DNA of 64,000 nucleotides from Flavobacterium sinopsychrotolerans. Lineage in GTDB: Bacteria > Bacteroidota > Bacteroidia > Flavobacteriales > Flavobacteriaceae. The stretch is taken from contig NZ_FODN01000003.1 in assembly GCF_900110375.1 (NCBI RefSeq), positions 1-64,000 on the forward strand, in the 5' to 3' direction. Of the stretch, positions 31,362-43,718 are shown in pieces; the stretch's first letter is position 1; every line of letters begins with the position of its first letter. The translations under genes were made by a program, and so were the position numbers. The notes under the pieces are model-generated. The model was not told the origin of the DNA and ran no database searches. It saw only the letters and a list, made by a program, of their open reading frames with translations.

Positions 31362-33047
31362 TTAAAATCCAACTGCTTTATCATCTCCTCTAAAATCAGC
31401 ACCACCTTCGAGTTTTTTATTTGGTAGAACCAAAATGGCATCTACTTTTCCTATTACAGGTGTTGTTTTTTCATTGATAAGATATCCTTTAGATTTCAAG
31501 GTTTCAAAAGTCTTTGTATCGAAAGTATTAGGTTCAAAAGTGATTAAATCTGGTAACCATTGGTGGTGAAAACGAGGTGCGTTTACCGCTTCCTGCATAC
31601 TAAAACGATACTCGTAAACATTTAATATCGTTTGCATTACCGATGTAATAATGGTAGAACCGCCCGGAGAACCCACAACCATAAATAATTTTCCTTTTTT
31701 CTCCACAATTGTTGGCGTCATGGAACTCAACATTCGTTTTTGTGGCGCGATACTGTTGGCTTCATTTCCTACCAATCCAAACATATTGGGTTCACCTGGT
31801 TTGGAACTGAAATCATCCATTTCGTTGTTGAGGAAAAACCCCAGTTCATCACAATAATATTTAGAACCATAACCGTCGTTTAATGTTGTTGTAGACGAAA
31901 CTGCATTACCAAATTGATCTACAATTGAATAATGAGTCGTCTCCGTACTTTCATTATACGTTACTTTTCCTTCCTTTATATCCGATGATAAAGTGGCTTT
32001 TTCAAAACTAAAATTTGACATTCTTTGTTTCAAATAGTCCTCATCCATTAAGGCTTTCAAGGGAATTTTTACAAAATCCGGATCCCCTAGATAATAACTT
32101 CTGTCGGCATACGCTCTTCTTTCGGCTTCTACAATAACTTGAATGGCTTCGGTAGAATTATGACCCATTTTAGCCAAGTCATAAGGCGCAATCATTTTGA
32201 ATATTTCAGCTAGACATATTCCGCCACTGCTGGGCGGAGGCATAGAAATAACCTTTAAATCTTTATAATCAAAAGTAAGCGGCGTTCTCCATTTGGCTTC
32301 ATATTTGGCCAAATCTTCCAAAGCGATTATTGCTCCTTTCTCCTGAAGGTATTTGACTAATATTTTAGCTGTTTCTCCTTTGTAAAATTCATCTCTGCCA
32401 TTTTTTGAGATCTTTTTCAATGTAGCTGCCAGCGCAGGATATTTTATAACATCATTTTCTTTGAAAGCAGTTGCAAATAATGTTTTGTCGCCATTTACTT
32501 TTATGATTTTGTCTCGATAGGCAGCTAATCTATCTTCTTGTTTTTTGGTAACAATAACACCTTTTTCGGCTAATGCAATTACGGGTTTCAGAATTTCTTC
32601 AATCGGTAATGAACCCAATTTTTCGTGAACTGCAAAAACACCAGCAATCGTTCCGGGAATTCCAATAGCAAGAGGAGATTCGGTACTCTTACCTTTTATA
32701 ACATTGCCTTTTTCGTCTAGAAACATGTTTTTTGTTGCTGCTAATGGCGCTTTTTCACGGTAATCTAATGAACCAATTTCACCGTTTGATTTTCGGTACA
32801 CCATAAAACCGCCACCTCCAAGATTTCCTGCAAACGGATAGGCTACAGCTAAAGCTAATTCAGTGGCAACCATCGCATCAAAAGCATTTCCGCCTTTTCT
32901 CATTATTTCAACTCCAATTTTTGAAGCTTCTTCACGTGCCGAAACAACCATTGCTTCATTGGCAACAAGTCCAGTAGGTTGAACCATTACATTTTGGGTT
33001 TTACAACCAATAGAAAGAACACTCAATAGAATAATAATTTTTTTCAT
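31362..33047 (-). CDS. ggt: Gamma-glutamyltransferase, copy 2 (lipoprotein)
   Basis: This 561-residue enzyme transfers or hydrolyses the gamma-glutamyl group of glutathione. I chose the ATG at 33045-33047 because it gives a lipoprotein signal (IIILLSVLSIGCKTQ) like the neighbouring copy; an earlier in-frame ATG at 33122 would sit inside the other gene. The self-cleaving Thr that starts the small subunit is in STETTHYSIVD (near residue 370). The binding loop MLSSMTPTIV and GSPGGSTIITSV are present. It is a tandem duplicate of the gene at 33064-34749, separated by 16 bp, and is probably periplasmic. Confidence 0.93.
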   Translation of the reverse strand: MKKIIILLSVLSIGCKTQNVMVQPTGLVANEAMVVSAREEASKIGVEIMRKGGNAFDAMVATELALAVAYPFAGNLGGGGFMVYRKSNGEIGSLDYREKAPLAATKNMFLDEKGNVIKGKSTESPLAIGIPGTIAGVFAVHEKLGSLPIEEILKPVIALAEKGVIVTKKQEDRLAAYRDKIIKVNGDKTLFATAFKENDVIKYPALAATLKKISKNGRDEFYKGETAKILVKYLQEKGAIIALEDLAKYEAKWRTPLTFDYKDLKVISMPPPSSGGICLAEIFKMIAPYDLAKMGHNSTEAIQVIVEAERRAYADRSYYLGDPDFVKIPLKALMDEDYLKQRMSNFSFEKATLSSDIKEGKVTYNESTETTHYSIVDQFGNAVSSTTTLNDGYGSKYYCDELGFFLNNEMDDFSSKPGEPNMFGLVGNEANSIAPQKRMLSSMTPTIVEKKGKLFMVVGSPGGSTIITSVMQTILNVYEYRFSMQEAVNAPRFHHQWLPDLITFEPNTFDTKTFETLKSKGYLINEKTTPVIGKVDAILVLPNKKLEGGADFRGDDKAVGF

Positions 33048-33063
33048 TCGAAATAGTATAAAT

Positions 33064-34749
33064 TTAAAAACCAACGGCTTTGTTATCGCCTCTTTTGTCA
33101 GCGCCACCTTCCAGTTTTCCATTTGGTAATATCAAAATCGCGTCTACTTCACCAATGATTTCTTTGTTTTTTTCATTAATGATATATCCTTTTTTCTTTA
33201 AATTGGTTAATAATTTTTTATCGAATGAATTCGGTTCAAAAATAATTTCATCAGGCAACCATTGATGGTGAAAACGGGGTGCATTTACTGCTTCTTGCAT
33301 ACTCATATCAAATTCATAAACATTCAATATCGTTTGTAAAACCGAAGTGATAATGGTGGAACCTCCTGGCGTTCCTACAACCATAAAAAGTTTGTTGTCT
33401 TTTTCTACAATCGTTGGCGTCATGGAACTCAACATTCTTTTTTCCGGCGCAATGCTGTTAGCTTCACTTCCAGTAAGTCCGTATAAGTTTGGAACTCCAG
33501 GTTTGGCGCTGAAATCGTCCATTTGATTATTCAAAAAGAAACCCAATTCGTCGCAATATATTTTGGAACCATAATTATCATTCAAAGTAGTCGTTGCCGA
33601 AACTGAATTTCCTTCTGAATCTACAATGGAATAATGAGTAGTTTGGTTGCTTTCATATCCTTTAATTTTTCCATGTGCAATATCCGAAGATTTAGAAGCT
33701 TGATCGAATGAAAAATCATTCATCCTTTTTTCTAAATAAGATGGACTTAGTAATTCTTTCGTTGGAAGTTTTACAAAATCTGGATCACCTAAAAAGTAAT
33801 TCCTGTCAGCATACGCTCTTCGTTCTGCTTCTGTAATTACCTGAATTGTTTTTACGCTGTTGTGACCCATTTGCGAAAGGTTGAACGGCTCAATCATTTT
33901 CATGATTTGATTGAGACAAATTCCGCCACTGCTGGGAGGAGACATCGAAGTGATTTTTAAATTTTTATATTGAAAAGTAATTGGAGTTCGCCACTTGGCA
34001 CTGTAACTGTTTAAATCTTCTATTGTGGCATTTCCACCCTTTTTAGCAAGAAAAGCAACTAACTTTTGAGCCGTTTCCCCTTTGTAAAATTCATTTCGTC
34101 CGTTTTTAGCAATTCGTTTTAACGTTGCTGCCAAAGCGATATATTTTATGGTATCATTTTCTTTGTATGCTTTGGAAAACAAACTGTTCTTCCCATTACT
34201 TTTTATAAAAGAAGATCTGTAGTAAGCCAAACTTTTCGCTTGAAATTTAGTAACAACAACACCTCTTTCTGCTAAAGCAATTACAGGTTTAAGAATTTCA
34301 CTGATGGGTAAAGAACCATATTTTTTGTGCACTTCAAATATTCCTGCAATGGTACCCGGAATTCCGGATGCCATTGCAGTCTCTGTACTTTTTCCTACAA
34401 TTACATTTCCTTTTTTGTCCAGAAACATATCTTTAGACGCTGCCAAAGTTGCTTTTTCTCGGTAATCGATAGCTCCAGTTTCACCATTTGCTTTTCTAAA
34501 AACCATGAAGCCGCCACCACCAATATTTCCCGCCTGAGGATGTGAAACCGCCAAAGCCAGTTCCATGGCAACCATAGCATCAAAAGCATTACCGCCTTTT
34601 TTCATAATTTCAACTCCAATTTGTGACGCTTCCTCACGAGCGGAAACGACCATCGCTTTTGAAGTCACTAAACCAGTTGGTTGAATAATCTTTTCATTCA
34701 ATTTGCAACCTAAAACGATAAGTAAAAGCAGGAACATTATTTTTTTCAT
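33064..34749 (-). CDS. ggt: Gamma-glutamyltransferase, copy 1 (lipoprotein)
   Basis: This 561-residue paralogue of the next gene has the same length and layout: lipoprotein signal (MFLLLLIVLGCKLNE), large subunit, catalytic Thr in SNQTTHYSIVD, then MLSSMTPTIV and GTPGGSTIITSV. It should process to two subunits in the periplasm and degrade glutathione or transfer its glutamyl group. Its ATG overlaps the stop of the upstream acpH-type gene by 4 bp (34746-34749). Conservation of all motifs in both copies suggests both work, perhaps on different gamma-glutamyl substrates. Confidence 0.93.
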   Translation of the reverse strand: MKKIMFLLLLIVLGCKLNEKIIQPTGLVTSKAMVVSAREEASQIGVEIMKKGGNAFDAMVAMELALAVSHPQAGNIGGGGFMVFRKANGETGAIDYREKATLAASKDMFLDKKGNVIVGKSTETAMASGIPGTIAGIFEVHKKYGSLPISEILKPVIALAERGVVVTKFQAKSLAYYRSSFIKSNGKNSLFSKAYKENDTIKYIALAATLKRIAKNGRNEFYKGETAQKLVAFLAKKGGNATIEDLNSYSAKWRTPITFQYKNLKITSMSPPSSGGICLNQIMKMIEPFNLSQMGHNSVKTIQVITEAERRAYADRNYFLGDPDFVKLPTKELLSPSYLEKRMNDFSFDQASKSSDIAHGKIKGYESNQTTHYSIVDSEGNSVSATTTLNDNYGSKIYCDELGFFLNNQMDDFSAKPGVPNLYGLTGSEANSIAPEKRMLSSMTPTIVEKDNKLFMVVGTPGGSTIITSVLQTILNVYEFDMSMQEAVNAPRFHHQWLPDEIIFEPNSFDKKLLTNLKKKGYIINEKNKEIIGEVDAILILPNGKLEGGADKRGDNKAVGF

Positions 34750-36920: not shown

Positions 36921-39458
36921 TTAAAAATTCACTCGAAAACTTACATTTGGCGTTAAGCCTAGTGATTTATTATCAACTTGAACGGCATCATTTGGGTTAT
37001 TTGGATTGACTTTGTAATAGCGATTTATAACATTATTTTGATTGGTAGCATTAATTACACCGGCATTAACCGAAGCTTTGATAGATTTCAAGAGATTGAA
37101 ATTGTAATTTATGGAAGCGTCTAATCGCATGAAATCATCGAGGTTTTCACTGTTTGGAGAATCATAATTCACTAAAGTGTTATTTCCGTTTTGCTCGGTT
37201 TCATTGCCTCCAATTGGTTTTGTATACGGTTGTCCATTTCTATAAATACCACCAATCGCTATTTTTAGATTTTTAAAAATATTGTAATAGAAACCAATTG
37301 ATAAAGAATGCCTTATATCTACATTATTAGGAAAAGTGGATGGGGTAAAAGTATCAAATTCATAATTATTTGTACTAAACGTATAACTTATCCAAATGCT
37401 GTAGTGAAGGGCTGTTTTATTAGCTAAAAATTCTAAACCTTTGGCGGTGTAACTTCCATTTGCGGTAGTATACTGAAAACTGTTATAAAAACCCTGATTA
37501 GAAGCTGTAATGCCGTCAACAATTTTATAAAAACCGGTAGCCTCAATATTTAATTTGTCATTATTGAATTCTACACCAAAAGAACCTTGCTTACTCGTTG
37601 CAATTGGGATATCTTTATCGTTGACTAAAACCCAACGCCTTTTTTCGACACCTAAAAAATCATCTTCAAAATCTACTATTTGAGTAGTAGATTGATTTTT
37701 GAATTCTCCTTCTAATTTTAAAGCAAATTGATCAGATAATTTTTGTCGAATGTTTATTCTTGGCTCAACCAAAAGCTTTTCGAATTTTTGAAAATAATTC
37801 AAACGCAATCCAACTCTTAAATAAGTGTTTTTTTTATTATATTCAACCTCAGAAAATAAGGCGTGATTTAATAAAACATCTTTTATAGTACTAGAGTAAA
37901 ACGGAGCGCTAACGGTAGTTTGATTTAACATCCCCGTTTCATTGAATTGATACCCAAACAAGAAATTTAAGTTGTCATTAGTTTTGTAATGTGTATTGAG
38001 CTTAGCTCCCGTTTCGAGCACCTCATTTGCTTCGGTTAAAAGCTGATCTGTTTCCACTCTGTAATCCGCTGCGTCAATATTATATTTGGAAAAGTACGTG
38101 ATGAAGTTTGAACTTAATTTTGAATTCCATTGTGCTTTCCAGTTTCCTCCGTAACCCATGTTTTTCTGGGATAAAGTACTGGTTTTAGATTGAGTTTCAT
38201 TAGAACTTGAAAGTCCGATTTCTGAATAATCCAAAGCGTTATTGATGCCAATAATATTTGCTCTGAATTGATGTTTTTCATTCAAATCAAAAAGTAATTT
38301 AGCGGTGTAATCATAAAAATAAAAATCAGAAGTTGTATTATTCTGGTCACTATCGGCATTGATTTCGGTATCCTGAAAACTACGATCAAAGTATTTAGTG
38401 TACGTAGGAGATTTAAACAAATCAGTAATGGAGCGACGTCCCGAAATATGAAGTTCTAATTTTTTAGTTAGTGGAATTTCTAAAAACGCATCGGTGCTAA
38501 TTAAATTAATTCCTGCGCCACCGGAAAATATATTTGAAATCAGGTCTTTTGTTTGCATATTTATAGTACTGGAAACGCCATCGCTGTATTCAGCGCTTGT
38601 TCCATTTTTACCAACAATAACTTTATTGGTAAGATTAGGATTGTAAGCAGAAATCAACCCGAAAAAATGACCAGAATGATACATTTTGATATTGTCCCAT
38701 AGCACTAAATTTTGATCGTTAGTTCCGCCACGCACGTTGATGTTAGCAATACTTTCATTGGTGCTTTCCACACCGGGAAGCGCTTGAATGGATTGCAAAA
38801 TGTCAGGTTCTATTAATCCTGGAAGAATACCGAATTTTTTAGTGTTTAAAACGGTGCTTCCATCCAGGTATTTTTGTAATCCGGGCGTCAAATAAACATT
38901 TATCAGGACCTGATTTAACTCTTCGTTTTTTGTGGAAAGAACAATGTCTTTGCAATTGTTTTGTGCAGAAAACAATTCGTTAGCAGAAAATTGTCTGGAT
39001 TCAAAACCCAAATAGGAAATGGTCAGCGTTGCATTAATCGGAATATTTTGCAGGCTAAATGTACCGTTTTTATCTGTGATTGTGCTTCTTCCAATGTTGT
39101 TTACAAGTACAGAAGCGCCAACTAAACGAGATTTCTTTTCATCGGATAAAACAATTCCGCAAACCGATATTGTTTTGTTTAAAACAGAAACGGTAACATA
39201 TCGATCGTCTAAAGCTTTGAAATTTAAAAGTGTTTTCGAGTTTAGATAATCAATTGTTTCTTGTAATGTAAAAGTAGCATTCGGTTTGTCAATTTTAATT
39301 GTGGCTACATCTTCAACTGCATACGAAAACTTGATATTAAATTGTTTTTCGAGGGAAACAATAACCTCACTTAAAGGTGTTTTTTTAGTTGTATTTTGTC
39401 CGTAACAAATACTGCCAATACAAAGTAACAGAGAAATCAGCCATTTATTTAACACCAT
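36921..39458 (-). CDS. TonB-dependent receptor with STN and carboxypeptidase-like domains
   Basis: This 845-residue outer-membrane protein has a signal peptide (LISLLLCIGSICYGQN). An STN secretin/TonB short domain (about 45-95) of the kind that talks to FecR follows, then a CarboxypepD_reg-like domain (about 97-185). The TonB plug (QSIQALPGVESTNESIANIN, VRGGTNDQNLVLWDN) and a C-terminal barrel ending in NVSFRVNF complete it. It belongs to the FecA-like class that couples substrate binding to sigma-factor release. It overlaps fecR by 14 bp. The substrate is unknown; the plug is short and of the type seen in peptide/protein-handling receptors. Confidence 0.93.
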   Translation of the reverse strand: MVLNKWLISLLLCIGSICYGQNTTKKTPLSEVIVSLEKQFNIKFSYAVEDVATIKIDKPNATFTLQETIDYLNSKTLLNFKALDDRYVTVSVLNKTISVCGIVLSDEKKSRLVGASVLVNNIGRSTITDKNGTFSLQNIPINATLTISYLGFESRQFSANELFSAQNNCKDIVLSTKNEELNQVLINVYLTPGLQKYLDGSTVLNTKKFGILPGLIEPDILQSIQALPGVESTNESIANINVRGGTNDQNLVLWDNIKMYHSGHFFGLISAYNPNLTNKVIVGKNGTSAEYSDGVSSTINMQTKDLISNIFSGGAGINLISTDAFLEIPLTKKLELHISGRRSITDLFKSPTYTKYFDRSFQDTEINADSDQNNTTSDFYFYDYTAKLLFDLNEKHQFRANIIGINNALDYSEIGLSSSNETQSKTSTLSQKNMGYGGNWKAQWNSKLSSNFITYFSKYNIDAADYRVETDQLLTEANEVLETGAKLNTHYKTNDNLNFLFGYQFNETGMLNQTTVSAPFYSSTIKDVLLNHALFSEVEYNKKNTYLRVGLRLNYFQKFEKLLVEPRINIRQKLSDQFALKLEGEFKNQSTTQIVDFEDDFLGVEKRRWVLVNDKDIPIATSKQGSFGVEFNNDKLNIEATGFYKIVDGITASNQGFYNSFQYTTANGSYTAKGLEFLANKTALHYSIWISYTFSTNNYEFDTFTPSTFPNNVDIRHSLSIGFYYNIFKNLKIAIGGIYRNGQPYTKPIGGNETEQNGNNTLVNYDSPNSENLDDFMRLDASINYNFNLLKSIKASVNAGVINATNQNNVINRYYKVNPNNPNDAVQVDNKSLGLTPNVSFRVNF

Positions 39459-40359
39459 AGTTGTAAAATATAATGGTTTTGCCTTGAATCTTGTAGCTTA
39501 ATTTAAGCGGAATTGTTACTGCTTGAAGCGCTATTTCTTTATTAGTATGTGTAAAACTTCCTGTAAAGAGTTTTGAAGTATCGACACCTTCCACTTTAAT
39601 TTTAATATCGTATTGACGCTCTAATTCTGCAATAACCTGATTTAAAGGAATCTTATTAAAACTTGATTCTTGTTGCATCCACGAAGGATTTTGGGCGTTA
39701 AAATCTTCAACATTTTCGATAATCCCATTTATAACTCGGAATGTTTTTCCGGGAGGTAATTTAATGGTTTCATTGTTATACGTTACACTCACCAAACCTT
39801 CGTAACAATTTACTTCAAAATAGTTTTTGCGTTCTTTTACGTTAAATTGTGTGCCTAAAACGGTAACGACACCCGCAGTTGTGTTTACACTAAATGTTTG
39901 CCCTTTTTGCACTTTGAAAAAAGCTTCTCCTTCTAATGTTAAAGCTCTTTTGTCAGCCCATTTTTTTTCGTTAAAACTTAATTTTGAAGCGGAGTTTAAT
40001 ATCACTTCAGAATTATCAGGAAGCGTAACAGTTTTTGTTTGCGCTATTTGAGTTTCGAAAGAGGTAATGTTATTAAAAAACAAGAAATAAGCAGAGGTTA
40101 ACATTACGACTAAAATAGCAGCAACTTTATAGAATGTCTTAAAGTTTAAAGTTCTGACTTTTGTTTTCTTTTTAGAATGGTTTCGCGTCTTAAAAGCTTC
40201 CAAAGCAGCGTGTGCATCTACTTTTGGAGCTTCCAATTGTGATGCATAATGAGCAATCTTTTCAAGTGTTTGCAAATCTTCAGATTGTTTTAAATCTTCA
40301 ATTTCTTGGCTTGAAAGCTCATTATTTAACCATTTTAATATCTCTTTTTCGTTTTTCAT
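39445..40359 (-). CDS. FecR-family anti-sigma factor
   Basis: This 304-residue protein has a cytoplasmic N-terminus (1-75), one membrane helix (VAAILVVMLTSAYFLFF, about 80-100), a periplasmic FecR domain (about 115-210, TVTLPDNSEVILNSASKL) and a C-terminal STN-like DUF4974 domain (about 235-300). It holds the ECF sigma factor inactive until the TonB receptor signals. A candidate sigma-dependent promoter (40378-40406) lies just before it, so fecR and the receptor may be autoregulated separately from the sigma gene. Confidence 0.93.
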   Translation of the reverse strand: MKNEKEILKWLNNELSSQEIEDLKQSEDLQTLEKIAHYASQLEAPKVDAHAALEAFKTRNHSKKKTKVRTLNFKTFYKVAAILVVMLTSAYFLFFNNITSFETQIAQTKTVTLPDNSEVILNSASKLSFNEKKWADKRALTLEGEAFFKVQKGQTFSVNTTAGVVTVLGTQFNVKERKNYFEVNCYEGLVSVTYNNETIKLPPGKTFRVINGIIENVEDFNAQNPSWMQQESSFNKIPLNQVIAELERQYDIKIKVEGVDTSKLFTGSFTHTNKEIALQAVTIPLKLSYKIQGKTIIFYNYGVK

Positions 40360-40377
40360 TTTATATCTCTATGTTTA

Positions 40378-40406
40378 TAAGACAACTAACTTTTAAATTA
40401 CCCTAC
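40378..40406 (-). promoter_or_regulatory. Candidate ECF-sigma promoter before fecR
   Basis: On the minus strand GTAGGGTAA (40406-40398) and TAGTTGTCTTA (40388-40378) are 9 bp apart. Both blocks and the spacing recur exactly at 41105-41133. It lies 18 bp before the fecR ATG. This is the second place where the motif appears and the main evidence that it is a real regulatory site. Confidence 0.75.
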
Positions 40407-40420
40407 AGCTAAATGATTAA

Positions 40421-40936
40421 TTATAAATTTTCTATTTGGGCTTTTAAAATTTGGAGTGCTCCAGACATTCTTTTTTCTACCGTTTTTTGAGAAATATCGA
40501 GTAATTCAGCTATTTCCCGATACTTTTTTCCCTCTATTCGATTCAATAAAAATACTTCCCGTTGTGTTTCACTTAATGATGCGATTGCTTTGGTGAGTTT
40601 TTGTTTGAATTCTTCTTCTTCAAATAAATATTCGGGACTTTGATTATTGGTATCTAAGTTAGGCGCATCTTTGGCATATTTTAATACCACTTTTTGATGC
40701 TTTATGTTGTTTAGAAATAAATTATTAATGCTGGTAAACAAATACGTTTTGACTTTACTAAAGTCAATCTTGGAGCAATTCTCCCAAATTTTGGTAAACG
40801 CATCTTGAACCAAATCTAATGCAGCTTCATCATCACCACATTTGTAATACGCAAAATTATTTGCTGATTGCACGTGCTTTAAGTAAAAGTCTCTAAAGTG
40901 ATTTTCTTCGCAAAGGGTACTTTTTTCGTCGCTCAT
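40421..40936 (-). CDS. ECF-type RNA polymerase sigma factor (FecI-like)
   Basis: This 171-residue sigma-70 family protein has region 2 (about 25-90, ALDLVQDAFTKIWENCSKID) and region 4 (about 120-168, LSETQREVFLLNRIEGKKY and ELLDISQKTVEKRMSGAL). It is of the Bacteroidota ECF group paired with FecR anti-sigma factors. It should direct RNA polymerase to the GTAGGGTAA-n9-TAGTTGTCTTA sites upstream of fecR and of the divergent lipoprotein operon. That link is an inference from the shared sites. Confidence 0.93.
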   Translation of the reverse strand: MSDEKSTLCEENHFRDFYLKHVQSANNFAYYKCGDDEAALDLVQDAFTKIWENCSKIDFSKVKTYLFTSINNLFLNNIKHQKVVLKYAKDAPNLDTNNQSPEYLFEEEEFKQKLTKAIASLSETQREVFLLNRIEGKKYREIAELLDISQKTVEKRMSGALQILKAQIENL

Positions 40937-41104
40937 TGAGTATTAATTCATTTTTTGTAGGTTGTAAATGTAAATTATTTTTTCAAAAAGCAATTGTGAT
41001 AATTAGAATTGCTTTTTTATGAAAAATATTTTAAATTTTAATTATTTGATTTTTAGTATTTTACGAATTTTTTTGTAAAAATTTATATTTTTTTTAAAAT
41101 TTCC

Positions 41105-41133
41105 GTAGGGTAAAAACAAACGTAGTTGTCTTA
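41105..41133 (+). promoter_or_regulatory. Candidate ECF-sigma promoter of the lipoprotein-metalloprotease operon
   Basis: GTAGGGTAA (41105-41113), a 9-bp spacer and TAGTTGTCTTA (41123-41133) match the minus-strand site before fecR base for base in both blocks. The first gene starts 62 bp downstream at 41195. Confidence 0.75.
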
Positions 41134-41194: not shown

Positions 41195-42238
41195 ATGAAA
41201 AAATTAAAAATTGTTACAGGAATTGCATTGATGGCTATCTTAGGTTTTACATCATGCCAAAGTGAAGTTGATGATGTACAAGGAGAAAATCCAAATACAA
41301 ATTCGGCTAATTCAACTACAACAACTAATCTGAAACGTACTTCGATGTACGATGGTTCATTTGATGATTTTTTGGATGGAGCATCTTGTTCTTCAATTTT
41401 GTTACCTGTTACTGCTAAAGTAAACGGAGTTCAGGTTTCTATTCTAAGTCAATTAGACTACCAACAAGTTATTTCTATTTTTGGACAGTTTAACAATGAC
41501 CAAGATACAGTTGTATTACAATTTCCTTTCAAAGTTAAATTAAGTAATTATACAGAGGTTACTGTTGCTAATCAAACTGAGTATAATGCGATTCTTAATG
41601 CATGTACATCAGCTGAAGCTTCTAGTCAAGATGCTATTTCGTCAGTAAATATCAGCTTCCCAATTACAATTTTAACGTATAATTTAAGTTTACAACAAAC
41701 AGGTAGTGTTGTCATCACATCCGAACAACAATTATATGCGTATATGTCTAATGTAAGCAGCACGGAATTATTTTCAGTAAACTATCCAATTTCAGTGACA
41801 ATTGCGGATGGAACAAAAATGACGATTTCCAGTGACGCTGAATTGCAAGCAGCCATCAGTGCATCTTTAAAAACAGAAGCAGCGATAGCAGCAGCTGTTC
41901 AAAACGGAAAAAAGTTGGAAACGATTTTAGTTAACGGAAAGTTTAAAGTGGATTCTTATATAAGTGCAGGAGTAAATTCAGCAACGAGTTATAAAGATTT
42001 TACGATTGATTTTGCAAATAATTTATCGATAACTGCTGTAAATCTAGTAAATACAACTGTAAATGGAACTTATGCGGTAAGCTCGGAATTAGATGTTTTT
42101 CTAAAACTTAATTTTTCAGGTAATGCTTCATTTACTTTATTGAATAATTCATGGAAAGTAACAAGTTTTACTGCTTCGACAATCACATTGCAAAGCTCTA
42201 CTAATGCAGCAGTAACATTAGTATTGAAACAAATATAG
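41195..42238 (+). CDS. Large secreted lipoprotein of unknown function
   Basis: This 347-residue protein starts at the ATG at 41195 (a TTG 9 bp upstream is less likely). It has a lipoprotein signal (IVTGIALMAILGFTSCQSE, lipobox FTSC), then a Ser/Thr/Asn-rich linker. The mature part is beta-rich and contains internally similar segments of the type FPFKVKLSNYTEVTVANQTEY, FPITILTYNL and YPISVTIADGTKMTISSDAEL, each giving a parent strand pair followed by a helix. It is probably surface-exposed. No enzyme motif was seen. It is the first gene of an operon with a metalloprotease and a barrel protein behind a candidate ECF promoter. Confidence 0.8.
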   Translation: MKKLKIVTGIALMAILGFTSCQSEVDDVQGENPNTNSANSTTTTNLKRTSMYDGSFDDFLDGASCSSILLPVTAKVNGVQVSILSQLDYQQVISIFGQFNNDQDTVVLQFPFKVKLSNYTEVTVANQTEYNAILNACTSAEASSQDAISSVNISFPITILTYNLSLQQTGSVVITSEQQLYAYMSNVSSTELFSVNYPISVTIADGTKMTISSDAELQAAISASLKTEAAIAAAVQNGKKLETILVNGKFKVDSYISAGVNSATSYKDFTIDFANNLSITAVNLVNTTVNGTYAVSSELDVFLKLNFSGNASFTLLNNSWKVTSFTASTITLQSSTNAAVTLVLKQI

Positions 42239-42326
42239 CTGGATTTAAGTTGGTAGTTTAGTAAGAACAGCTGCCTAAAATAGTGTAGCTGTTCTTATAT
42301 AAATGAACTTAATAATAAATATAATA

Positions 42327-43103
42327 ATGAAAAAAGTAATTTCTCTATTAATGATTGGTTTGTTCCTCTCAGTAGCATCCTGTTCAAAAGAAGATGATCC
42401 CTTAGATAATCCAGTTGCAATAAATCCTAATACGAATAAACAGCAAACGGGAAGTTCTTCGAACTATTTGCTATCTGATAAAAAGTTCAAAAGTATGGTT
42501 ATTGAAGTGGTGTATGTAGCGGGTTTTGAACCAAGCAGTACTGCTATCAATAATTTTGTAAACTTTCTGACAGCAAGAACATATAAACCAAACGGCATTA
42601 GTGTTATAAAACGTTCTATACCATCACCAGGGAATTCACCATATACTGATGCAGAGATTATAAGTATTGAAGATGCGAACAGAACAAAATATAACAATGC
42701 TGATGAAATAGCTGTTTGGGCATTTTTTACAGATGGTAAATCTTCAAAAGACACTGATACATCAGTTATTCTTGGAACGGCTTACAGAAACACTTCTTTT
42801 GTTATTTATGAACAAACGCTTCAAGCTTTAAGCGACAGTCCATTTGAACCAAGCAGAAGTTTATTGGAAACAACAGTGATTACCCATGAATTCGGACATA
42901 TTCTTGGATTGACAAATCTTGGTACAGCCTTACAAAGCAATCACGAAGATGCAGAACATCCAAAACATTGTATTGAAAAAACGTGTTTAATGTATTGGTC
43001 TTCAGAAACTGGTGGTGGTATTTCTAATATGGTTTCAGGCGGTGCAGCTCCACAATTAGATGCGCAATGTATTGCTGATCTTCGTGCCAATGGAGGGAAA
43101 TAA
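42327..43103 (+). CDS. Lipoprotein metalloprotease with HEFGHILGL zinc motif
   Basis: This 258-residue protein starts at the ATG at 42327, which directly precedes the lipoprotein signal (LLMIGLFLSVASCSKEDD, lipobox VASC); an ATG 24 bp upstream is less likely. The zinc motif HEFGHILGLTNLG has the HExxHxxG core of metzincins but Asn at the usual third-ligand place. NHEDAEHPKHC and CLMYW downstream could give the third ligand and the Met-turn, as in archaemetzincin-like enzymes. It is likely anchored on the outer membrane facing outwards or into the periplasm. It lies between two envelope proteins in one operon. Confidence 0.85.
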   Translation: MKKVISLLMIGLFLSVASCSKEDDPLDNPVAINPNTNKQQTGSSSNYLLSDKKFKSMVIEVVYVAGFEPSSTAINNFVNFLTARTYKPNGISVIKRSIPSPGNSPYTDAEIISIEDANRTKYNNADEIAVWAFFTDGKSSKDTDTSVILGTAYRNTSFVIYEQTLQALSDSPFEPSRSLLETTVITHEFGHILGLTNLGTALQSNHEDAEHPKHCIEKTCLMYWSSETGGGISNMVSGGAAPQLDAQCIADLRANGGK

Positions 43104-43136
43104 AAGTAGAATTTGAATAATAAAAAAACAAAAAAG

Positions 43137-43718
43137 ATGAAAATAAAACTGATAACAATAGCTTTATTCTTTGGTGTAATAACAACAATGAATGCACAGG
43201 ACAATACTATTCCTAAATCGAATGGAGGAATAAAAGGAGGTTATAATTTAGCAGCCGTAAGTTTTGACGGAGATGGAGAAACAGAACAACGACACGGTTT
43301 TCATATAGGAGTTTATGGCGAGTCTTTTATTAGCGAAAGCTTTTCTATTCAACCTGAATTAATGTATTCGCAACAAGGATACGAAATTACAAATAGCAGT
43401 GGGACTTTCACGCAAAAGTTAGATTACATAAACTTACCATTAATGCTTAAAGCCTATCCTTCTAAAAATTTCTTTTTGGAAGCGGGTCCACAAATTGGAT
43501 TAGCAGTTTCACACAAAGAAGAATACGATGGACTTTTTAGTAGTTCACAAGAATATGACCCTAATAATTTTGATTGGGGAATGAATTTTGGAGGAGGATT
43601 TAAAACGGATTCCGGTATCAGTTTTGGAGTGCGCTATCATTTAGGTTTAGGAGATTTATATGATGAAGGCAAAGCTCAAAACAGAGTGTTTCAATTCTCA
43701 TTAGGATTTGATTTATAA
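43137..43718 (+). CDS. Outer-membrane beta-barrel (porin-family) protein
   Basis: This 193-residue protein starts at the ATG at 43137, before the signal peptide (TIALFFGVITTMNAQDN). Alternating hydrophobic strands such as GIKGGYNLAAVSF, FHIGVYGESFI, LMYSQQGYEI and FGVRYHLGLGDLY and the terminal Phe-x-Leu pattern (FQFSLGFDL) mark an eight-strand outer-membrane barrel of the OMP_b-brl_2 type. It is the last gene of the lipoprotein-protease operon and is followed by a terminator. Partner or cargo unknown. Confidence 0.88.
   Translation: MKIKLITIALFFGVITTMNAQDNTIPKSNGGIKGGYNLAAVSFDGDGETEQRHGFHIGVYGESFISESFSIQPELMYSQQGYEITNSSGTFTQKLDYINLPLMLKAYPSKNFFLEAGPQIGLAVSHKEEYDGLFSSSQEYDPNNFDWGMNFGGGFKTDSGISFGVRYHLGLGDLYDEGKAQNRVFQFSLGFDL

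Follow-up and report, generated by a model that had tools for sequence, protein, structure and literature searches.

Few regulators of Bacteroidota are as common as the extracytoplasmic function (ECF) sigma factors that work with FecR partners, and to our knowledge the promoters that they read are largely unknown. A locus of Flavobacterium sinopsychrotolerans raises the question of whether such promoters can be recognised from DNA, since two copies of one bipartite element lie on either side of a FecI-like sigma gene. We analysed the locus within a window of 64,000 nucleotides (contig NZ_FODN01000003.1, positions 1 to 64,000). The genes, the two sites and the predicted transcription starts are as follows.

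36921–39458, minus: TonB-dependent receptor (TBDT), 845 aa; Pfam CarbopepD_reg_2 and Plug, weak FecR_C at residues 25–90
39445–40359, minus: fecR, anti-sigma/sigma regulator, 304 aa; Pfam FecR (5.8e-18) and FecR_C (2.6e-10)
40370, minus: predicted transcription start (A) of the fecR–TBDT operon; conserved A 8 nt after the −10; leader of ~10 nt
40378–40406, minus: predicted promoter site 1; −35 GTAGGGT (40406–40400), n15, −10 TGTCTTA (40384–40378); 37.4 bits with the family weight matrix
40421–40936, minus: ECF sigma gene, FecI-like, 171 aa; NCBIfam TIGR02985, Pfam Sigma70_r2 and Sigma70_r4_2
41105–41133, plus: predicted promoter site 2; −35 GTAGGGT (41105–41111), n15, −10 TGTCTTA (41127–41133); 34.3 bits with the family weight matrix
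41141, plus: predicted transcription start (A) of the lipoprotein operon; conserved A 8 nt after the −10
41195–42238, plus: lipoprotein, 347 aa; lipobox FTSC, acidic residues after the Cys
42303–43103, plus: zinc protease of predicted metzincin fold, predicted lipoprotein; start probably ATG 42327 (MKKVISLL...VASC)
43113–43718, plus: outer-membrane beta-barrel protein; Pfam OMP_b-brl_2 (2.5e-25); start probably ATG 43137

Two matching sites around a sigma gene

A pattern search found GTAGGGTAA-n9-TAGTTGTCTTA as an exact match at 40378–40406 (minus) and 41105–41133 (plus), at the positions and on the strands given in a preliminary description of this DNA, and with the sigma gene (40421–40936, minus) between them. 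Site 1, read from 40406 to 40378 on the minus strand, is GTAGGGTAATTTAAAAGTTAGTTGTCTTA; site 2, on the plus strand, is GTAGGGTAAAAACAAACGTAGTTGTCTTA. Twenty bases are identical, and the spacers and flanks differ. Site 1 lies inside the 61 bp gap that separates the sigma stop codon from fecR, whose start is 18 bp downstream of the site. Site 2 is 168 bp beyond the sigma start and points in the opposite direction, facing the lipoprotein gene 61 bp downstream. An inverted repeat, AAAAAGCAATT...AATTGCTTTTT (window positions 40983–41017), is found between the sigma start and site 2 and is partly conserved in close relatives. Elsewhere in the window (31362–34749, minus) are two adjacent, similar gamma-glutamyltransferase-like genes.

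The full pattern had no match in the 3.52 Mb genome besides these two sites with up to three mismatches allowed, nor did 100 dinucleotide-shuffled versions of the window yield one at the same tolerance. About 1e-7 spaced matches of 20 bases would be expected between the two gaps by chance. Searching the whole genome with a shorter core pattern (up to one mismatch) gave one additional match, with one mismatch; it lies antisense within a purL-like reading frame, and we therefore judged it chance-like and rejected it as a promoter. Random occurrence in coding DNA, which the preliminary description had named as grounds for refutation, was thus examined and the motif passed. The search of genome and relatives proposed there returned only two sites in this genome, with paired sites common in relatives.

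The sigma factor scored 134.2 bits against TIGR02985, the FecI-like family of Bacteroidota (cut-off 126.4), and its nearest named relatives are from Flavobacterium species, with 98% identity in Flavobacterium sp. 11. FecR has one strong hydrophobic segment by hydropathy (residues ~76–95), corresponding to a single predicted transmembrane (TM) helix, with the N-terminus placed in the cytoplasm and the FecR and FecR_C domains in the periplasm. The receptor is the conserved third gene of the cassette. Its residues 25–90, a possible N-terminal signalling region of the STN type, match FecR_C weakly (3.6e-4, 21.0 bits, under the gathering score of 24.4), followed by CarbopepD_reg_2 and Plug.

Conservation of the cassette and its predicted promoters

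Of 150 genomes of the genus, 81 contain relatives of the sigma factor. The surroundings of matches were collected, and 236 loci were kept, each with a distinct sigma sequence and an adjacent fecR. The divergent lipoprotein is present at 212 of these, the metzincin at 82 and the barrel at 70; the core is therefore sigma–FecR–receptor plus lipoprotein, and this combination is kept across the genus and in many other genera of the family. The target had been described as a lipoprotein–protease–barrel operon. The lipoprotein stands as the conserved partner, whereas the protease and barrel belong mainly to one long-lived sub-lineage, which extends to Winogradskyella, Algibacter, Kordia and others.

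The lipoprotein matched no Pfam or NCBIfam family. A structure model predicts beta-alpha repeats followed by a C-terminal lipocalin-like barrel, and within the family relatives were found in 234 of 301 genomes, representing 168 of 203 genera. Several genera have a form of ~600 aa and tandem copies (L178:7596-9401, L181:8204-9973 and L183:8115-9902; L numbers denote loci), and these adjoin sigma–FecR–receptor genes. A weak fold match of the barrel to potempins, which are protease inhibitors (E 5.8e-3), was not adopted, because the lipoprotein is found without the protease in most loci.

The protease has, by prediction, a metzincin fold: the model (pLDDT 83.8) has archaemetzincin 2x7m as its best match (E 3.2e-5, TMt 0.68, TMq 0.48). 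In common with archaemetzincin and other metzincins it has the HExxHxxG helix, a Met-turn, a C-x4-C-x-M motif and the overall fold. Unlike them, it has Asn at the position of the usual third ligand, an inserted loop carrying invariant His214 and His222, and a predicted lipid anchor. The zinc motif HExxHxxGxxH is replaced by HExxHxxGLxN in 34 aligned protease sequences, in which Met230 is invariant, as are HEFGH, N205, H214, H222, C223 and C228. To judge from this alignment only a later His could serve as the third zinc ligand, and the family may have an unusual zinc site. The protease had been called secreted and metzincin-like; the fold is upheld as a prediction, but a lipobox is present, and the protein is therefore a predicted lipoprotein rather than freely secreted.

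We scored both intergenic positions with a weight matrix, which was trained on sites from the same loci and is not independent of the loci that it scored. At a threshold of at least 12 bits it found a fecR-side site in 196 of 236 loci, a lipoprotein-side site in 187 and both in 179, with none at either position in reversed sequence. An untrained 13-letter consensus (score at least 11) detected sites at 173 and 172 of 197 loci, respectively, against 0 and 10 in reversed sequence. When spacers of 12–18 were allowed, a spacer of 15 was found in 168/173 and 170/172 sites (97–99%). The core is GTAGGGT-n15-TGT(C/T)TTA, in which GTAGGG and TGT are 90–100% fixed, with either C or T following the TGT. 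Conservation is lower for the AA that follows GTAGGGT and the TAGT that precedes TGTC (positions 8, 9 and 19–22, at 41–88% in the training set of the matrix). Hence the claim of 20 fixed bases is correct as an identity within the window, but across relatives only GTAGGGT-n15-TGTYTTA is near-invariant. Paired sites are found in hundreds of related marine and freshwater bacteria. Across the order, exact core matches are concentrated in Flavobacteriaceae, and in other families they are no commoner than in the reversed control.

An A is conserved 8 nt past the end of the −10 in 83% of 196 fecR-side sites and 87% of 181 lipoprotein-side sites. This puts GTAGGGT at −36 to −30 and gives the predicted starts at 40370 (minus) and 41141 (plus). 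The fecR ATG mostly follows 18–20 nt after the −10. The sites are always oriented toward the gene, and they have the features of ECF-type promoters that can be read from DNA: a bipartite −35/−10, fixed spacing and a predicted start ~8 nt after the −10.

In 231 of 236 loci the sigma gene had no site of its own upstream; such a site was found in only five. The sigma factor therefore appears to induce its regulator, the receptor and the divergent operon, but not itself, and its gene would not belong to its own regulon. At 28 of 236 loci there is no recognisable fecR-side site, mostly alongside more divergent sigma factors. About 29 loci have at least two tandem lipoprotein-side sites, often ~160–169 bp apart (for example L199:8071-8261, L201:8236-8395 and L217:9531-9725).

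Site classes, sigma residues and alternative readings

With the −35 letters left free, many loci without GTAGGGT proved to have GTAGGA, TCAGGA or TCAGGG instead, with unchanged spacing and on both sides of the sigma gene. The −35 class agrees between the two sites in all 198 loci in which both were called. Taking the −35 class together with the C/T of the −10, 193 of 198 agree, compared with a shuffled mean of 83.5 and a maximum of 110. The −10 C/T differs between paired sites in 5 of 179 loci, and a phylogeny-corrected test of this agreement had too few independent pairs. As shuffling ignores relatedness, paralogs within one genome are better evidence. Paralogous cassettes have differing −35 hexamers (GTAGGG, GTAGGA and TCAGGA/TCAGGG), and genomes G310, G217, G334, G341, G352 and G365 each carry two cassettes of different −35 class, every one internally matched; in G310 these are GTAGGG/GTAGGG and TCAGGA/TCAGGA.

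The site classes follow residues of the sigma factor. Residue 155 is one of four among 171 that separate GT from TC perfectly (218/218), and residue 158 is the best of 171 for base 6 (217/218). Both lie in the region-4 recognition helix, as judged by alignment with sigma-E (query 99–166 with chain 119–186 of 1or7), and we take them to be equivalent to sigma-E S172 and F175. These sigma-E residues are reported to contact −35 DNA (PMC6713349). The register of residues to bases does not fully match the sigma-E structure. Locus L321 splits the two traits: it combines TCAGGG with Tyr155 and His158, the outcome expected from a two-part code. The sole exception to the rule for base 6 is L329 (sigma start 7312, sigma-oriented), which has GTAGGG on the lipoprotein side with Tyr158, and in which a fecR-side site was not recognisable. 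The site and residue classes reflect about 3–7 independent evolutionary switches, a number with which phylogeny-corrected tests cannot reach significance, and we therefore treat the residue code as a hypothesis. The −10 C/T also tracks sigma residue 69 in 190 of 196 raw comparisons, with too few independent pairs in the phylogeny-corrected test, and may be regarded as a lead.

On balance, we lean slightly towards the reading that Flavobacteriaceae hold parallel cell-surface signalling (CSS) cassettes whose −35 specificity has diverged (residue 155: K for GT, Y for TC; residue 158: S or H allowing G at base 6, Y for A), with both promoters switching together. With considerably greater confidence, we consider both window sites to be promoters read by the FecI-like ECF sigma factor whose gene lies between the two. 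This central claim of the preliminary description is supported by footprinting across 236 loci, the fixed n15, the ECF-like geometry and the covariation; that this particular sigma factor recognises the sites is what we infer from them.

Of the other readings, the one that fares best, while still improbable, is that the promoters are real but are also used by another ECF sigma factor of the genome, so that the regulon would be a shared one. There are 14 TIGR02985-like ECF matches in the genome, and redundancy of ECF sigma factors has been suggested in F. psychrophilum (PMC9723704). Against such cross-talk, only two sites are present in the genome, and the diverged −35 classes of paralogous cassettes elsewhere suggest insulation.

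It is far less likely that the sites are operators of a separate transcription factor, with the promoters elsewhere. A shared bipartite motif before two divergent operons could be a regulator box, but the geometry is that of an ECF promoter (a −35-like block, n15, a −10 of GTC/GTT type and a conserved A at ~+1), the spacing is rigid and the orientation is always gene-ward. Site class follows the region-4 residues of the sigma factor even between paralogs of one genome, and sigma and FecR are the only regulators that are always present.

We give still less credence to reading by the primary sigma A, or to a variant of the SM5 promoters (TAnnTTGY), a known class in F. psychrophilum (PMC9723704), although a TA-n-TTG string does occur in the −10 region of the window sites. 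The distance from TA to TTG is one base less than in SM5, the T of TA is only ~50% conserved, and SM5 as described in the published text has no GTAGGGT block (PMC9723704). A G at −6 would place GTAGGGT near −29 to −23, and two exact copies genome-wide are far too few for sigma A. Finally, recent local duplication or conversion, which would explain the 20 identical bases in the window without shared regulation, was rejected as extremely improbable because the flanks have diverged and lack homology, the spacers differ (independently so in paired sites at ~180 loci), and the classes change in pairs over evolution.

Signalling model, known systems and further targets

For the preferred reading, in which the sigma factor drives transcription from both sites, we propose a pathway that would work largely like FecI/FecR cell-surface signalling. 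The outer-membrane receptor would sense a ligand and signal through its N-terminal domain to FecR in the inner membrane, by which the sigma factor would be released or activated; the direction of the signal and the role of FecR are inferred. Sigma–RNA polymerase would then read GTAGGGT through region 4 and TGTCTTA through region 2, and transcribe fecR and the receptor gene just after the sigma gene as well as the divergent lipoprotein–metzincin–barrel operon. With the sigma gene presumably transcribed from elsewhere, induction would raise the regulator (or brake), the receptor and the effectors, but not sigma itself.

The locus resembles E. coli FecIRA and Pseudomonas CSS systems in its FecI-type ECF sigma factor, its FecR with one TM segment, its TBDT with a possible N-terminal signalling region and the adjacency of these genes. 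In E. coli the promoter that depends on the sigma factor belongs to fecA, and the co-transcribed fecIR genes are not subject to autoregulation (PMC9249621). Here, the promoter sequence differs and the promoter lies between sigma and fecR, so that FecR and the receptor would be targets, together with the divergent lipoprotein operon. The trio of sigma, anti-sigma and receptor also recalls the Bacteroides glycan loci with ECF sigma, FecR-type anti-sigma and SusC, and in B. thetaiotaomicron a TGTT −10 is reported for some ECF-type promoters (PMC12596196). Unlike those loci, the window locus has neither SusD nor glycan enzymes but a divergent orphan lipoprotein, whose modelled repeats and barrel and lack of a Pfam family set the locus apart from SusC/D loci; the GTAGGGT −35 is not reported in the Bacteroides literature examined. 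In the same genus, the SM6 promoters of F. psychrophilum are of ECF type, with a CGT −10, and drive type IX secretion genes (PMC9723704) rather than FecR/TBDT cassettes. Porphyromonas gingivalis SigP is likewise a Bacteroidota ECF sigma factor controlling envelope and secretion genes, but its proposed motif is rich in A/T and it is controlled by the two-component system PorXY (PMC4800418). A literature search for the GTAGGG motif with ECF, to which the ECF Hub motif tables were external, found nothing relevant. Within the literature examined, the promoter element and the split topology appear to be new, as do the pairing with an orphan lipoprotein across the family and the way in which promoter pairs and sigma residues have diverged in step.

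Relatives have further predicted targets that the window's genome lacks. In other genera a third site precedes a secreted, His/Tyr-rich protein of ~150 aa next to the barrel (L172:5992-6534, L174:5439-5988, L199:10881 onward and L210:11923 onward). This protein (YYxxRAxEDAKxEQ...; CDxHCHH in congeners) has its own GTAGGGT-n15-TGTCTTA site in many genera, and in congeners it sits elsewhere, again with its own site; the genome that contains the window gave no homologue. A different branch of Flavobacterium has additional sites, which precede a Lipoprotein_15 protein and, next to the receptor, operons for OB-fold, DUF5777 barrel, cytochrome c and YceI proteins (L124:3129-4272, L127:2362-3507). 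All of these further targets are envelope or secreted proteins.

In hundreds of genomes, sequence is enough to recognise a predicted promoter, the sigma residues that match it and a conserved target operon, and the match between sigma factor and promoter thereby becomes directly testable by swaps of residues and bases. An orphan lipoprotein found across the family is also linked in this way to a defined system of surface signalling. If −35 specificity has diverged as proposed, several mutually insulated cassettes could share one cell, each with its own receptor and orphan lipoprotein operon.
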